A DNA stretch of 43,883 bases from Rhodospirillales bacterium (lineage in GTDB: Bacteria; Pseudomonadota; Alphaproteobacteria; ATCC43930; CGMCC-115725). The notes under the pieces are model-generated. The model had not been told where the DNA came from and ran no database searches. It saw only the letters and a list, made by a program, of their open reading frames with translations. This document shows, in pieces, positions 3,000 to 43,882 of this stretch (its first letter is position 1; each line of letters opens with the position of its first letter). The DNA lies in contig JAQGIC010000100.1 of assembly GCA_028288725.1 (NCBI GenBank), forward strand, positions 1 to 43,883, read 5' to 3'. The translations under genes and the position numbers were made by a program.

Positions 3000-3164
3000 T
3001 TTGTCCTCGTGCAAGCGCGCCCCGGCCATAGGTCGTGAGCATAAGGACCCGCTGGGCTCTCAGGAATCAAGGTCGTACGAATGTCTGGGTTTTGCTTTCT
3101 CCGTCGGAAAGCAGACCATCCGCAACTCCATCCCGATCCGGCCTTGCGGCCGGCGCCGCTGTCG

Positions 3165-11404: not shown

Positions 11405-14374
11405 CTATTCGATCAGGCGTTTCCACCAGCCTCGGCGCGGCGGGCCCGCCGGCTCAGCCGGTTCGGCCGCCGGGGGGACGATCGGGGGCGCTTCGACCGG
11501 CGGGGTCTCGATCAGTAGCGGGGCGACCTCGATGGCGGCCGGGACGACCGGAGTCGGCTCGGGGATCGCCTCGACGACGGGGGCCGCCGGCTCGGCTACG
11601 GCTTCGGCATCAGCCTTCTTGCGCGCCGGGGCCCGGCGACGCTTCGGCTTTTCGGCCGGGGCTTCCTCGGCGACCGTCTCGGCCGGTGCGGCCGCTTCGA
11701 CGACCGCTGCGGGCTCGACCGCCTCGACGACCGGTGCAGCGGCGTCCGCCTTCTTGCGCGGGGCGCGGCGGCGCTTCGGTTTCTCATCGGTCGCGGTCTC
11801 GACCGCTACGGCTTCGCTCACGACCGGTGCTGCGGCAGGCGCGGTCGGGGCGATATCGTCCTCTTCGCCGGGCATGGCGAACAGATGCTCGCGTCCGTCG
11901 CGGGCGAAGTCGAGCGCGGCCGGGCGATAATCGAGCGGATCCTCTTCTTCGATCGGGAAACCGGCGGCGTTGACCACGGCGGGTGCCGCGGGTGCGCCCG
12001 TCTCGTCCTCGCGGCGCCGACGACGACCGCCCCGCTTGCCGCGCCGGCGGCGCTTGCGCTCCGCGTCGGACAGGCCATCGGCGCCAACCACGTCGGACGG
12101 GGCCGCGGCGTCGGGGGCTTCCTCGCCTTCGACTGCCGGCTCGGCGCCTTCAGCCTCGTCGCCGTCTTCCTCGTCACCTTCGACGGCATTCTCTTCGCCA
12201 TCCAGGGCCTGGCCCTGCTCCTCGCCCGGACGCCGACGCTTGCGCCGACGGCGCTTGCGGCGCGGACGGTCTTCTTCGCTGCCGGCTTCTTCGCCAGCGG
12301 GCTTCTCGCCACGGGCGGCCGGCTCGCGGGTCTCGCCCTCGGTCTCGACCGGCTCGTCGAATTCCTCGACGTATTCTTCTTCCTCTTCCTCCGGCGGCGG
12401 CGTGACCGGGACGGGCAATGCTGCCAGTTCCTGCGGCGTCATCGCGCGGACCCGCTCCAGGCGGAAGGCCGGCGGCACCAGCGTATCGTCCTGCAGGACC
12501 ATGACGCGGAAGCCGTAGCGCTGCTCGATCATCGACAGCGTGTCGCGCTTCTGGTTCAGCACATAGAGCGCGATCGGCGTCGGCACATAGATCGCGACTT
12601 CGGCGGTCCGGCGGCGGATGCCCTCTTCCTCCAGCGCGCGCAGCACGACCAGCGCCGTCGATTCCGTCGAGCGGATCGTGCCGGTGCCGTTGCAATGCGG
12701 GCAAATCTGGGTCGAGGCCTCGATCAGGCTGGAGCGCAGACGCTGGCGCGACAGCTCCAACAGGCCGAACGGGCTGATCCGGCCGAGCTGGATACGCGCC
12801 CGGTCGTTCTTCATCGCATCCTTGAGCTTGCGCTCGACGGCGCCCTGGTTGCGCCCGTCCTCCATGTCGATGAAGTCGATGACGACGAGGCCGGCCAGAT
12901 CGCGCAGCCTGAGCTGGCGGGCGATTTCCTCGGCCGCTTCGAGATTGGTCTTGGTCGCCGTCTCTTCGATGTTGCGCTCTTTGGTCGAGCGGCCCGAATT
13001 GACGTCGATCGAGACCAGCGCCTCGGTCGGGTTGATGACGATATAGCCGCCCGAACGGAGCTGGACGACCGGATTGTGGATCTGGTCGATCTGGGCATCG
13101 ACCTGGAAGCGATGGAACAGCGGGATCGCCGGATCGCGGTAGGGACGGACGCGCGCGGCATGGCTCGGCATGAGCATGCGCATGAATTCCTTGGCGGTCC
13201 GGTATCCGTCCTCGCCCTCGACCAGCACTTCCTCGATGTCGCGGGCATAGAGATCGCGGATCGCGCGCTTGATCAGGCTGCCTTCCTCATAGATGAGGGC
13301 CGGCGCCGAGGATTGCAGCGTCATCTCGCGGATCTCGTCCCACAGACGCAGCAGATACTCGTAATCGCGCTTGATCTCGGCCTTGGAGCGTTCGCTGCCG
13401 GCGGTGCGCACGATGACGCCCATGCCCTCCGGCACCTCCAGCTCCTCCATCAGCTCCTTCAGGCGGCGGCGGTCGGTGGCCGACGTGATCTTGCGCGACA
13501 CGCCGCCGCCACGCCCGGCGTTCGGCATCAGCACGCAATAGCGGCCGGCGAGCGACAGATAGGTGGTGAGGGCCGCACCCTTGTTGCCGCGTTCTTCCTT
13601 GGTCACCTGGATCAGCAGGATCTGCCGACGCTTGATGACTTCCTGGATCTTGTAGCTGCGGTAGTGGCGCGTGCGGGGCCGCGACTGCACTTCCTCGAAA
13701 TCGTCGCCGCCCACGGTCTCGAGCGTGATCGGGTCTTCTTCCGACTGCTCGATATGGCTGGAGCCGCCGTCGCTGTCGCCGCCGATGCCGGCTTCCGGCG
13801 CCTCGGTCGGATCGGCCGAGGCGGCCGTTTCGAACGGCGCCGGCTCGACGATCTCGACCGCGTAGGTCGAGCCGACGGTGATGCCTTCCGATGCTGCGAG
13901 CGTCGGGGCCGGATAGTCTACCGGAGCCGGCCCGGATTCGGCCTGAACCGTGTGTTCGGCATGATCATGCCCATGATCGCCATGGTCATGGTCGCCGTGA
14001 TCGTGATCATGGCCTTCGGCGTCATGATCCGGCTGCTCGTGATGTTCGTGCGGCAGCTGGGGATGATCGTCGTCGCCATGCTCGTCGTCATAGCGTTCGG
14101 CCGCGAGCATCGCTTCCCGGTCGCCGACCGGGATCCGGTAATAGTCCGGATGGATTTCGCTGAATGCCAGGAAGCCGTGGCGATTGCCGCCATATTCCAC
14201 GAAGGCGGCCTGCAGAGAGGGTTCCACCCGCGTGACTTTCGCCAGGTAGATATTGCCCTTGATTTGCTTTTTGGTGGAAGTCTCGAAGTCGAATTCTTCG
14301 AGACGGTTGCCGTTGAGAACGACGACCCGGGTTTCTTCGGGATGCGTCGCATCGATCAGCATGCGTCGTGCCAT
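11405..14374 (-). CDS. rne: Ribonuclease E (RNase E/G family)
   Basis: The 989-residue endoribonuclease is the core of the RNA degradosome. It begins MARRMLIDATHPEETRVVV, typical of the family. An S1 RNA-binding domain (residues about 38-275) is split by an insertion (about 92-230) that is acidic and His-rich, with repeated HDHD/HGDH units near 110-141. The catalytic and DNase I-like region follows, with VDVNSGRS and IDFIDM (metal-binding Asp). The Zn-link CPHCNGTG has Cys558 and Cys561. After about residue 670 the tail is low-complexity, alternating acidic and Arg/Lys/Pro/Ala-rich blocks, a likely scaffold for RNA and partner binding. Earlier in-frame starts exist up to 14515, but similarity begins at 14374. 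A terminator lies just downstream; upstream is a long leader. Confidence 0.95.
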   Translation of the reverse strand: MARRMLIDATHPEETRVVVLNGNRLEEFDFETSTKKQIKGNIYLAKVTRVEPSLQAAFVEYGGNRHGFLAFSEIHPDYYRIPVGDREAMLAAERYDDEHGDDDHPQLPHEHHEQPDHDAEGHDHDHGDHDHGDHGHDHAEHTVQAESGPAPVDYPAPTLAASEGITVGSTYAVEIVEPAPFETAASADPTEAPEAGIGGDSDGGSSHIEQSEEDPITLETVGGDDFEEVQSRPRTRHYRSYKIQEVIKRRQILLIQVTKEERGNKGAALTTYLSLAGRYCVLMPNAGRGGGVSRKITSATDRRRLKELMEELEVPEGMGVIVRTAGSERSKAEIKRDYEYLLRLWDEIREMTLQSSAPALIYEEGSLIKRAIRDLYARDIEEVLVEGEDGYRTAKEFMRMLMPSHAARVRPYRDPAIPLFHRFQVDAQIDQIHNPVVQLRSGGYIVINPTEALVSIDVNSGRSTKERNIEETATKTNLEAAEEIARQLRLRDLAGLVVIDFIDMEDGRNQGAVERKLKDAMKNDRARIQLGRISPFGLLELSRQRLRSSLIEASTQICPHCNGTGTIRSTESTALVVLRALEEEGIRRRTAEVAIYVPTPIALYVLNQKRDTLSMIEQRYGFRVMVLQDDTLVPPAFRLERVRAMTPQELAALPVPVTPPPEEEEEEYVEEFDEPVETEGETREPAARGEKPAGEEAGSEEDRPRRKRRRRKRRRPGEEQGQALDGEENAVEGDEEDGDEAEGAEPAVEGEEAPDAAAPSDVVGADGLSDAERKRRRRGKRGGRRRRREDETGAPAAPAVVNAAGFPIEEEDPLDYRPAALDFARDGREHLFAMPGEEDDIAPTAPAAAPVVSEAVAVETATDEKPKRRRAPRKKADAAAPVVEAVEPAAVVEAAAPAETVAEEAPAEKPKRRRAPARKKADAEAVAEPAAPVVEAIPEPTPVVPAAIEVAPLLIETPPVEAPPIVPPAAEPAEPAGPPRRGWWKRLIE

Positions 14375-14786
14375 CAGGCATCTACTCCGGAGCACGGCCG
14401 GTCTCACGCCGTGCGAAAACCGGCGGGACAGCGCGCTCTCGTTTGGCCGGGCCGGCGGAACCCTCGAAAACATCCTGCCGAACGGCGCTCTTGCGGGCGC
14501 CATGGCTGGGTTCATCGGGTCCCCGCGATTCGGATAGGTGTCCGAACCTGGCCACGGGGGTTCATAAAAGGATCCGCTGAGGGTCTACGCCCCCGCCGGG
14601 AACCAGGTCGGAGCGCTATAGGTCGCATCCGACGATCGGGTTCTCCGGGGCGACGTCGCCGCATCGATCAGATCGACGGGGCTTCCCCAGGGATTTTCGC
14701 GTAGCCGACAATAAAGAGCGATGGCCGGAACGACAACCCCTTAAAGCGCAGGGGCGCAGACGGGGCGAAAAATACCAGGCGCGCGT

Positions 14787-14815
14787 TTGCGATTGTTCTT
14801 GATTTGTTCTATGGC
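14787..14815 (+). promoter_or_regulatory. Putative SOS promoter with LexA box
   Basis: GTTC (14795-14798), seven bases, then GTTC (14806-14809) form the direct-repeat LexA operator known from alphaproteobacteria. It falls between a -35-like TTGCGA (14787-14792) and a weaker -10-like TATGGC (14810-14815) with 17-base spacing, so LexA bound here would block a plus-strand promoter. The nearest plus-strand genes are a possible 29-codon ORF at 14842 and then mrcA. Confidence 0.6.
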
Positions 14816-14841
14816 CGCTCGTCGACTGAAAGGACGTGCTG

Positions 14842-14931
14842 ATGAGGGCAGAAGGCCAGATGATGACCATCGACCGGCGCTTCGTTGAGTTCCTCGCGAA
14901 CGACAAGACCCTCAATCGCTGCCGTTTCTGA
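14842..14931 (+). CDS. Possible SOS-controlled 29-residue peptide
   Basis: The ORF begins 27 bases after the putative SOS promoter and has an AAAGGA ribosome-binding site seven bases before its ATG. The peptide starts MRAEGQMMTIDRRFVEF and ends NRCRF. It is mixed-charge and amphipathic and has no membrane segment. Nothing else in the leader has a comparable start context. I do not recognise the peptide. Its length equals that of the Caulobacter SOS peptide SidA, but that is a membrane peptide, so no homology is claimed. It could also be a leader ORF of the mrcA transcript or a chance ORF. Confidence 0.3.
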   Translation: MRAEGQMMTIDRRFVEFLANDKTLNRCRF

Positions 14932-15115
14932 CAGTGCCGTTCTCGGCATGGCCGGCGAATATGGCCCCAATACGGCCAAGCGCCCCCGGAACCTTCGGGG
15001 CTGCCGCGACGTAAATACGCTTGGCAAGGCCGGTGCCCGCGGGTCATACCCAACGGGCCGGCAAAGGGTGTAAAATCCGCCGGTCGCCGTCTGGTTCGGC
15101 GCCCGCTCTTATCAA

Positions 15116-17830
15116 ATGAGCCCGTTGCCGCGCATGCGCTATATCCAATCGCTGCTCTTCACGTTGTTCCTGCTGCTGGTGCTCGGCTCCGGCGCGGCCT
15201 TCGTCGTCTATGAGCATTACGCGTCGGACCTGCCGGACTTCGAGCAGCTGGCCAGCTATCAGCCGCCGATCATGACCCGCGTCCATGCCGGCGACGGGCG
15301 ATTGCTGGCGGAATACGCGACCGAGCGCCGGGTGTTCGTGCCGATCTCGGCCATCCCGCCGCGCGTGGTCCAGGCGATGCTGGCGGCGGAGGATCGCGAG
15401 TTCTTCACCCATGGCGGCGTCAATCCGGCGGCCATGGTGCGCGCCGCGATCCAGAATTTCATGCATGTCGGCCAGGGCCGGCGCCAGATCGGCGCGTCCA
15501 CCATCACCCAGCAGGTCGCGAAGAACATGCTGCTCGGCAACGAGTACAGCTTCGCCCGCAAGATCAAGGAAGCGATCCTCGCCGTCCGAATGGAGCAGGC
15601 GCTGTCGAAGGAGCGTATCCTCGAGCTCTATCTGAACGAGATCAATTTCGGCCGTGGTGCCTATGGCATCGCCACCGGCGCGCTCGTCTATTTCAACAAA
15701 TCGGTCGATGAGCTGACCGTGTCCGAGGCGGCGTTTCTCGCCGGCACGGTCAAGGGCCCGACCAACTACGACCCGGCCCGGCATTACGACGCGGCCAAGG
15801 GCCGGCGCGATTATGTCATCGACGGCATGGTCAAGATCGGCGCCATCGGCGAGGCCGAGGCGCGCGCGGCCGAGGCCGAACCGATCGTGCTGAAGAAGCG
15901 CGACGAGACCCAGGTGTTCTCCGCCCCCTATTTCACCGAAGAGGTCCGGCGCGAGCTGATAGCGCGCTTCGGCGAGGACAAGGTCTACAAGTCCGGCCTG
16001 TCGGTCCGCACCAGCCTCGATCCGATCCTGCAAAGCTATGCCGACAAGGCGCTCAGGGACGGGCTCGTCACCTATGATCGCCGCCATGGCTGGCGCGGCC
16101 CGGTGACCCATCTGGAACTCAACACCGAAGCCAAGGGCTGGCAACAGGCGCTGGCCGCCGTGCCGGTGCCGGGCGGTGCCGCGCCCTGGAAGCTGGCGCT
16201 GGTGCGCGAGGTCAGGCCGGACGCGGCCGAGATCGGCTTCGTCGACGGCTCGACCGGCACCGTGCCCATGAAGGAAATGGAATGGGCGCGGCCGACCACC
16301 GACGACCAGCATGTCGGCGCCACGCCGAAGACGGCCGAACAGGTCGTGAAGCGCGGCGACGTGGTCCTGGTCGAGGCGGTCATGACCGAGACGGCGGCGA
16401 CCAAGCCCACGGCCCAGAAGGGCAAGCCCGTCAAGGTGGCGGAGCCGGCCGCCCCCGCGGCCCCGCCGAGCTTTGCCCATTGGGCGCTCAGGCAGATCCC
16501 GAACGTGTCGGGCGCGATGGTGGCGCTCGATCCCCATACCGGCCGGGTGCTGGCGATGGATGGCGGCTGGTCCTACGACACGAGCCAGTTCAACCGCGCG
16601 ACCCAGGCCTATCGCCAGATCGGCTCGACCTTCAAGCCGTTCGCCTATCTGGCCGCGCTCGACAATGGCATGACGCCCTCGACCCTGATCCTCGACGATC
16701 CGATCGAGCTGGAGCAGGGCCCGGGCCTGCCGCTGTGGCGCCCGCATAATTTCGAAGGCGGCGAGGCGCCGGGACCGCAGCCGCTGCGCGTCGCGATCGA
16801 GAAATCCTTGAACCTGATGACGGTCCGCATGGCGACGACCATCGGCATCGACAAGATCGCGCCCTATGTCGAGCGGCTGGGCCTGATGGACAAGATGCCG
16901 CTGCTCTATGCCCAGGTGCTGGGCGCCGGCCAGACCACGCCGCTGAAGCTCGGCACCGCCTATGCCATGATCGACAATGGCGGCAAGAAGATCACGCCGT
17001 CGCTGATCGATCGGGTCGAGGACCGCGAGGGCAAGATCGTGTTCAAGCACGACAAGCGCGACTGCCCGCGCTGCGGCGACTACGACTGGGGTTCGGACGA
17101 CGAGGTGCCGAGCCTGCCGGACGAGCGCGAGCAGATCCTGGACCCGGCGACGGCCTATCAGATGGTCAACATCATGCAGGGCGTCGTTCAGCGCGGCACG
17201 GCGGCCTACTCGGTCGGCAACGTTCTGAAGATGCCGCTCGCCGGCAAGACCGGCACGACCAACGACATCTTCGATACCTGGTTCGTGGGCTTCACGCCGG
17301 ATCTGGTCGTCGCGGTCTATGTCGGGTTCGACACGCCACGCACGCTCGGCCGTCAGGAACAGGGCGCGCGCACCGCGGCGCCGCTGTTCACCGAATTTAT
17401 GACCGACGCGCTCAAGGACAAGCCGGCGATCGATTTCCGCATTCCGCCGGGCGTGCGTCTGGTCCGGGTCAATCCGGCCAACGGCCAACTGGCCGACGGC
17501 AGCGAGCGCAACACGATCTGGGAAGCGTTCAAGCCCGGCACCGAACCGACCCCCGGCGACCAGGTGGTCGACGGCGGCGGCATCGATGCCGGCGCGATCG
17601 GCGATATGGACCAGACCAATGCGCCGGTTGCGGACGATCAGCCGCTGCTGCATGTCGGCCAGCCGCAGCCGCCGGCGACGGCCTATGGTGCCGCGATCGC
17701 CGGGGCCGCGCCGCAGCCGGGATATCTGGCGATTCCGCCCGCGCCCCAGGCGCCGACCGGGGCGGTACCGCCGCCGCCGGCCCCCCGCCCCGCGACGGCG
17801 CCATCGACGGGGACGGGCGGTCTGTATTAG
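15116..17830 (+). CDS. mrcA: Penicillin-binding protein 1A (bifunctional class A PBP)
   Basis: The 904-residue inner-membrane enzyme polymerises and cross-links peptidoglycan. A single transmembrane helix (about residues 9-32) follows a short cytoplasmic start. The GT51 glycosyltransferase domain has the catalytic Glu in AAEDREFF (Glu92) and the GASTITQQVAKNMLL block. An OB-like insertion (about 320-430) precedes the transpeptidase domain, which has nucleophile Ser504 in GSTFKP and KTGTT at Lys711. A CPRCGDYDW motif near 645 is of a type seen in alphaproteobacterial PBP1A. The C-terminus is a Pro/Ala-rich tail of about 90 residues. It is divergent from rne and is followed by prfB after 55 bases. 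Confidence 0.95.
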   Translation: MSPLPRMRYIQSLLFTLFLLLVLGSGAAFVVYEHYASDLPDFEQLASYQPPIMTRVHAGDGRLLAEYATERRVFVPISAIPPRVVQAMLAAEDREFFTHGGVNPAAMVRAAIQNFMHVGQGRRQIGASTITQQVAKNMLLGNEYSFARKIKEAILAVRMEQALSKERILELYLNEINFGRGAYGIATGALVYFNKSVDELTVSEAAFLAGTVKGPTNYDPARHYDAAKGRRDYVIDGMVKIGAIGEAEARAAEAEPIVLKKRDETQVFSAPYFTEEVRRELIARFGEDKVYKSGLSVRTSLDPILQSYADKALRDGLVTYDRRHGWRGPVTHLELNTEAKGWQQALAAVPVPGGAAPWKLALVREVRPDAAEIGFVDGSTGTVPMKEMEWARPTTDDQHVGATPKTAEQVVKRGDVVLVEAVMTETAATKPTAQKGKPVKVAEPAAPAAPPSFAHWALRQIPNVSGAMVALDPHTGRVLAMDGGWSYDTSQFNRATQAYRQIGSTFKPFAYLAALDNGMTPSTLILDDPIELEQGPGLPLWRPHNFEGGEAPGPQPLRVAIEKSLNLMTVRMATTIGIDKIAPYVERLGLMDKMPLLYAQVLGAGQTTPLKLGTAYAMIDNGGKKITPSLIDRVEDREGKIVFKHDKRDCPRCGDYDWGSDDEVPSLPDEREQILDPATAYQMVNIMQGVVQRGTAAYSVGNVLKMPLAGKTGTTNDIFDTWFVGFTPDLVVAVYVGFDTPRTLGRQEQGARTAAPLFTEFMTDALKDKPAIDFRIPPGVRLVRVNPANGQLADGSERNTIWEAFKPGTEPTPGDQVVDGGGIDAGAIGDMDQTNAPVADDQPLLHVGQPQPPATAYGAAIAGAAPQPGYLAIPPAPQAPTGAVPPPPAPRPATAPSTGTGGLY

Positions 17831-43805: not shown

Positions 43806-43882
43806 GGCGGGATAGCTCAGCTGGTCAGAGCAGGGGAATCATAATCCCAAGGTCGCTGGTTCAAATCCAGTTCCCGCTACCA
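43806..43882 (+). tRNA. tRNA-Met(CAT)
   Basis: A 77-base cloverleaf is visible: acceptor GGCGGGA pairing with TCCCGCT (with a G-T pair at the end), D-arm GCTC...GAGC, anticodon loop ATCATAA with anticodon CAT, T-arm with GGTTCAAATCC, and encoded CCA. The elongator Met identity is preferred from overall similarity. tRNA-Ile2 also has a CAT anticodon and cannot be strictly excluded. The acceptor G1-T72 start is not that of an initiator tRNA-fMet. Confidence 0.9.

Follow-up and report, generated by a model that had tools for sequence, protein, structure and literature searches.

A candidate LexA-repressed promoter in a lineage-specific segment of the rne-mrcA spacer of a Rhodospirillales bacterium

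The spacer between the divergent rne and mrcA genes of a Rhodospirillales bacterium carries a LexA-type box set between -35-like and -10-like elements and followed by a 29-codon open reading frame (ORF) of coding-like composition, all within a segment that is absent from the relatives examined. On balance, the arrangement is best read as a recently gained LexA-repressed promoter whose transcript would pass through a probable gene fragment toward mrcA, perhaps adding damage-induced PBP1A. In the proposed mechanism, this SOS promoter was gained in the lineage through an insertion of roughly 170-240 bp into the spacer. LexA bound to the box, between the -35 and -10 elements, would block RNA polymerase, and RecA-stimulated cleavage of LexA following DNA damage would then permit a rightward transcript from about position 14822, the putative transcription start. 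This transcript would carry the translatable ORF, which is most likely what remains of the 3′ end of a vapC (PIN) toxin gene and not a dedicated SOS peptide, cross the conserved mrcA leader and, as no terminator was found before 15116, run into mrcA. Such read-through would add damage-induced PBP1A synthesis on top of that from mrcA's own promoter. The features are listed in Table 1, numbered along the window, which is the whole 43,883-nt stretch of DNA analysed.

Table 1. Features of the rne-mrcA spacer and its flanking genes (window coordinates).
Feature	Position	Strand	Basis or remark
rne (RNase E/G)	11405..14374	-	RNase_E_G domain; likely true start Met48 of longest ORF
rne promoter-like elements TTGTCG, 16 nt, TTATTG	14709..14736	-	by eye; kept in congener; outside box
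Segment without counterpart in congener, probable insertion	14749..14985	.	237 bp versus 68 unrelated bp in congener
-35-like element TTGCGA	14787..14792	+	sequence; TTGC at the same offset in 4/12 GTTC-N5-TTGTTC sites of the genome, this one included
LexA-type box GTTCTTGATTTGTTC	14795..14809	+	GTTC-N7-GTTC direct repeat; identical to operator preceding PA0069-family radical-SAM gene in 7/18 loci
-10-like element TATGGC	14810..14815	+	17-nt spacer containing box; TATAGG and TATTCT at two other sites
Ribosome-binding-site-like AAAGGA	14829..14834	+	sequence; 7 nt upstream of ATG
29-codon ATG ORF MRAEGQMMTIDRRFVEFLANDKTLNRCRF, probable vapC-like gene fragment	14842..14931 (stop included)	+	coding-like composition
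mrcA (PBP1A), next gene downstream of predicted SOS promoter	15116..17830	+	Transgly, PCB_OB and Transpeptidase domains

An alphaproteobacterial LexA box and a 29-codon ORF had been predicted in this spacer. Both are found where they had been placed, and the box corresponds to the LexA-type motif of the organism's own genome, which accompanies recA, lexA (as a variant), dinB, an ImuA-like gene and a radical-SAM gene. Judged by its sequence, the predicted promoter holds up and gains in strength, the box being better than first reported. The direct repeat that defines membership among alphaproteobacterial LexA/SOS operators occurs twice in the window against 0.81 expected, a count reached by 20 of 100 shuffles. 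The other match (43859-43873) falls within a tRNA-Met gene (43806-43882) and constitutes a trap for box scans. Across the whole genome, the loose GTTC-N7-GTTC pattern occurs 135 times versus 60 for the reversed pattern, and the tighter GTTC-N5-TTGTTC pattern 12 times versus 2 for its reversed control. From base composition, about 0.0009 copies of the exact 15-mer would be expected per genome; it is present in all seven genomes searched, at nine places in total. Single copies in two genomes (G003 and G010), and the other copy in the own genome, do not precede the radical-SAM gene; the latter (contig C48, box at 3039 of locus L192, minus strand) is the only further exact 15-mer in that genome, with no obvious gene after it. 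A search of viral contigs for the box plus five bases returned one AT-rich contig, judged unrelated.

The genome encodes both RecA and LexA (PF01726, above cut-off). In both genomes of the genus, a LexA-type motif lies upstream of recA (exact) and of lexA (the one-letter variant GTTTAGGTTTTGTTC), and in the own genome it is found 29 nt upstream of a dinB-type gene and adjoins an ImuA-like gene, whose ImuA score is below the model cut-off. The PA0069-family radical-SAM protein was matched in 18 of 19 genomes searched, and 17 of these 18 loci (L196-L213) have, just upstream, a box whose two halves hold no more than one mismatch; the remaining locus (L212) is a gene fragment with an unmatched start. 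This gene thus appears to be a conserved SOS-type target in the order. The copy in the own genome has a variant box, GTTCTTGTTTTGATC. The shared operator suggested that the segment might be a remnant of a radical-SAM gene start, a reading that was rejected: the likeness extends no further than the box and a few adjoining bases, and elsewhere in the own genome the gene is matched over nearly its full length.

Several further LexA-type sites adjoin genes of potential interest. One locus of the own genome (L193, contig C114:33000-37500) holds two LexA-type promoters, with boxes at 1226 and 3281, 2 kb apart. One stands before the gene of a 402-aa protein in which Pfam finds a Tox-REase-5 domain, the other before that of a DUF1444-like protein of 289 aa, whose match is below the Pfam cut-off. 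A 38%-identical homologue of the Tox-REase-5 protein in the congener is likewise downstream of a LexA-type box, and a 26% homologue in G003 lies downstream of the very 15-mer of the window; these homologues form a candidate SOS-controlled nuclease-fold family. A 182-aa protein is found downstream of a box ending in TTTTTGTTCTATGG in both genomes of the genus (L090, own contig C62; L230, congener). The likeness of the two copies was judged by eye, and neither Pfam nor NCBIfam matches the one in the own genome. The congener also has a LexA-type box flanked on one side by a 153-aa frame and on the other by a frame resembling a Phd/VapB antitoxin by eye, followed by a PIN toxin gene (L223, contig C1:372400-375000), a possible SOS link of a toxin-antitoxin pair.

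As for the placement of the box between -35-like and -10-like elements, also part of the original prediction, the hexamers are present, 17 nt apart, and their frame is common to two other sites, but a generic sigma-70 scan of 14500-15150 was empty, returning 0 promoters. The frame TTGC-N4-GTTC-N7-GTTC-TAT occurs at 3 of the 12 GTTC-N5-TTGTTC sites of the own genome, the other two being the C114 sites. About 0.0017 occurrences are expected per genome from base composition. None of 24 sites in the congener has this frame; the scan covered the fetched stretches around sites rather than whole genomes. A working LexA promoter at the site is judged likely.

The box and the ORF had both been expected to be conserved in relatives if the original prediction held, and neither is in those examined. 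Thirty best-scoring mrcA loci from 61 genomes were oriented, and their upstream DNA was inspected over as much as 1300 bp (1018 and 647 bp at two loci that end early); the exact box is absent from all 29 relatives over this distance and present in the window locus alone. The congener (G001) matches the flanks at 14600-14748 (84%) and 14986-15113 (81%), with no match to the middle. Among the 24 loci where rne is the divergent next-door gene, the rne-mrcA gap is longest here, at 741 bp; the congener has 573 bp, and the remaining 22 loci range from 437 to 529 bp. The segment is most simply accounted for by an insertion in this lineage.

The segment has no copy elsewhere in the own genome, the best other match having an E of 0.05. 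A search of 61 genomes with the whole spacer recovered only the congener flanks and two short matches, of 22 and 30 bp, within the portion that forms the mrcA leader, and an mrcA scan of a named genome collection gave one distant Desulfohalobiaceae contig, which was uninformative. Rfam returned no match for 14300-15300 up to an E of 1. Two blastn matches of the segment were rejected as chance, one of 27 bp to a phage and one of 36 bp (33 identities, 3 gaps) between the ORF and an unrelated Bradyrhizobium protein; the latter indicates that chance matches of such size do occur.

The ORF resembles a gene in composition. Its coding log-likelihood of 11.2 bits was reached by none of 5000 composition-random controls and by 1 of 5000 Markov controls, and its codon composition is like that of the window's genes, with GC of 0.52, 0.38 and 0.83 at the three codon positions. 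Against this, the ORF read on the reverse strand is also coding-like (8.5 bits), and in each of the spacer's other five frames the top 29-codon window scores between 4.2 and 9.7 bits. The frame of the ORF is also listed from a GTG two codons upstream of the ATG. The highest-scoring coding stretch anywhere in the spacer (15.2 bits) starts upstream of the ATG, at 14830, which is slightly more in keeping with truncation of a gene than with a newly arisen peptide, although not decisively so.

Among 43 genomes of the order, the peptide was found in its own alone and in none of the 42 others; 25 of the 43 have a completeness of 90% or more and a contamination of 5% or less. At an E of 0.1 or better, it is matched in 4 of 385 genomes of the class, the own included, and two of the three outside matches were judged to be chance, as one lies opposite another long frame and one inside a 531-aa protein. 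No match was found in Pfam (up to an E of 1), PHROGs, NCBIfam or solved structures, nor by tblastn against plasmids and phages.

The best outside match is to the C-terminus of a 133-aa frame of genome G357. Its E of 0.0026 in the 385-genome search refers to a single genome, such that about one match of this quality is expected by chance across all those searched. The G357 frame has no NCBIfam name; its plasmid relatives, where a feature is listed, are annotated as VapC family toxins. Aligned, MRAEGQMMTIDRRFVEFLANDKTLNR of the window and LRADTHVVTADRRFVRACANDATLKR of G357 are identical at 14 of 26 positions, and the two stops are two residues apart. A profile of 30 VapC-type tails ranks the window frame first, at 11.9 bits (E 0.089) against 7.5 bits for the runner-up, among 9488 stop-to-stop frames, a set in which the window segment recurs in four overlapping loci, and the frame stays first, at 10.2 bits, when the two closest VapCs are left out. 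With either version, none of 20000 shuffles reaches the window score, a comparison that is not independent because VapC was chosen beforehand by the best match. The same preselection applies to the likeness between MTIDRRF in the ORF and the C-terminal T-x-D-x-x-F motif of the aligned VapC tails. In a retained-residue test, with 14 random positions kept, 5.5-5.9% of null peptides score as high (p 0.055-0.059). Upstream of the ORF, no VapC-like sequence clearly above chance was found. The box itself was considered as a decayed vapC codon run (D-L-F-Y) and rejected as not clearly above chance, the fraction of random segments scoring as high being 0.28 over 13 columns and 0.055 over a 6-column core. 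Overall, the evidence weakly suggests a VapC link and does not prove it, and the ORF is probably a gene fragment and not a new division-blocking peptide.

The chief alternative concerning the ORF is a newborn, lineage-specific SOS micropeptide, whose 29-aa product would act in the DNA damage response, possibly by blocking division. The SOS-type promoter, the AAAGGA element 7 nt before the ATG and the coding-like composition all agree with such a role, as does the box-to-ATG distance of 32 nt, similar to the 33 and 39 nt at the two C114 sites with the same frame; the Caulobacter inhibitor SidA (PMC4211646) is likewise 29 aa long. However, the peptide is missing from the 42 other genomes of the order and from the congener's spacer, and resembles a VapC-type C-terminus. 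It is also hydrophilic (GRAVY -0.56), with a best 15-residue hydropathy of 0.21 and no membrane-helix-like stretch, so that a membrane helix like those of SidA and DidA is not expected; the single transmembrane segment by which SidA-type inhibitors are recognized is absent by hydropathy. These features make the micropeptide unlikely, and they speak against the conserved division-blocking peptide of the original prediction. A bolder version would see an SOS gene at birth, where a consensus LexA promoter has been joined to a toxin-gene coding fragment, yielding a damage-induced micropeptide and placing PBP1A under SOS control; it is a long shot. In general, a perfect operator followed by a tidy short ORF does not suffice to call a new SOS peptide. 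At the other extreme, box and ORF may be functionless chance sequence. GTTC-N7-GTTC alone is expected almost once in the window, the locus is not conserved and the generic promoter scan is empty, but neither an exact copy of a conserved operator nor a frame common to two other sites is readily expected from base composition, and this explanation is improbable.

What the promoter would drive is a separate matter. It may exist for mrcA, as an extra SOS-inducible PBP1A promoter with the ORF as a neutral leader. The gene that follows on that strand is mrcA, 306 nt past the end of the box, and no terminator-like site was found in 14500-15150. The fold of the RNA from 14822 to 15118 shows no notable gain in stability over shuffles (z -1.05), and together with the empty terminator scan this leaves SOS read-through into mrcA possible, the missing terminator being its sole ground. 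Against a dedicated mrcA promoter, the transcript may stop before mrcA by other means, and the lack of the exact box within 1300 bp upstream of mrcA in the 29 relatives examined indicates that SOS control of mrcA is not conserved there. A promoter kept for mrcA is a tentative option, behind the preferred reading in which mrcA would be reached by read-through from a recently gained promoter. None of seven papers on SOS, LexA, penicillin-binding protein and mrcA announces SOS control of mrcA in its title, an observation from which absence in print is not claimed. LexA control of rne from this box, also raised in the original prediction, is highly improbable. rne is divergent and shares the spacer, and the orientation of a box relative to its gene can be either, as at the ImuA-like gene (L195). 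Yet the box lies 58 bp from the rne -35 element, and the rne promoter-like elements, outside the segment, are kept together with the leader in the congener, which has no box. The longest rne frame begins at 14515, and Met48, at 14374, is a likely start; among 23 matched relatives, the homology sets in only at residues 41-48 in 8 and at residues 1-32 in the other 15.

If the promoter works as proposed, the PBP1A gene would be damage-controlled in one species and outside such control in the nearest relative compared, and the alphaproteobacterial SOS regulon could gain members through small insertions.

Compared with the VapC (PIN-domain) type II toxins, the ORF resembles a C-terminal tail, as in its alignment with the G357 protein. 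It corresponds to only about the last fifth (29 residues versus 133); the rest of the domain is missing, including a PIN domain with acidic catalytic residues, and no vapB was recognised. With SidA, the SOS-induced division inhibitor of Caulobacter, the window peptide shares its length of 29 residues and its position downstream of a LexA-type promoter. SidA resides in the inner membrane and acts on FtsW (PMC4211646), whereas the window peptide is hydrophilic; the two are set apart here by description and not by sequence. The candidate promoter itself resembles the LexA regulon promoters of alphaproteobacteria. In Caulobacter, the LexA operator is GTTCN7GTTC and approximately 97% of promoters have a single box, according to PMC12700426. 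The candidate promoter has the same operator motif, likewise as a single box, and within its genome the motif recurs at recA, dinB and further LexA-type sites. It differs in lying within a segment not found in relatives, and the only conserved gene that follows it is mrcA, 306 nt on.
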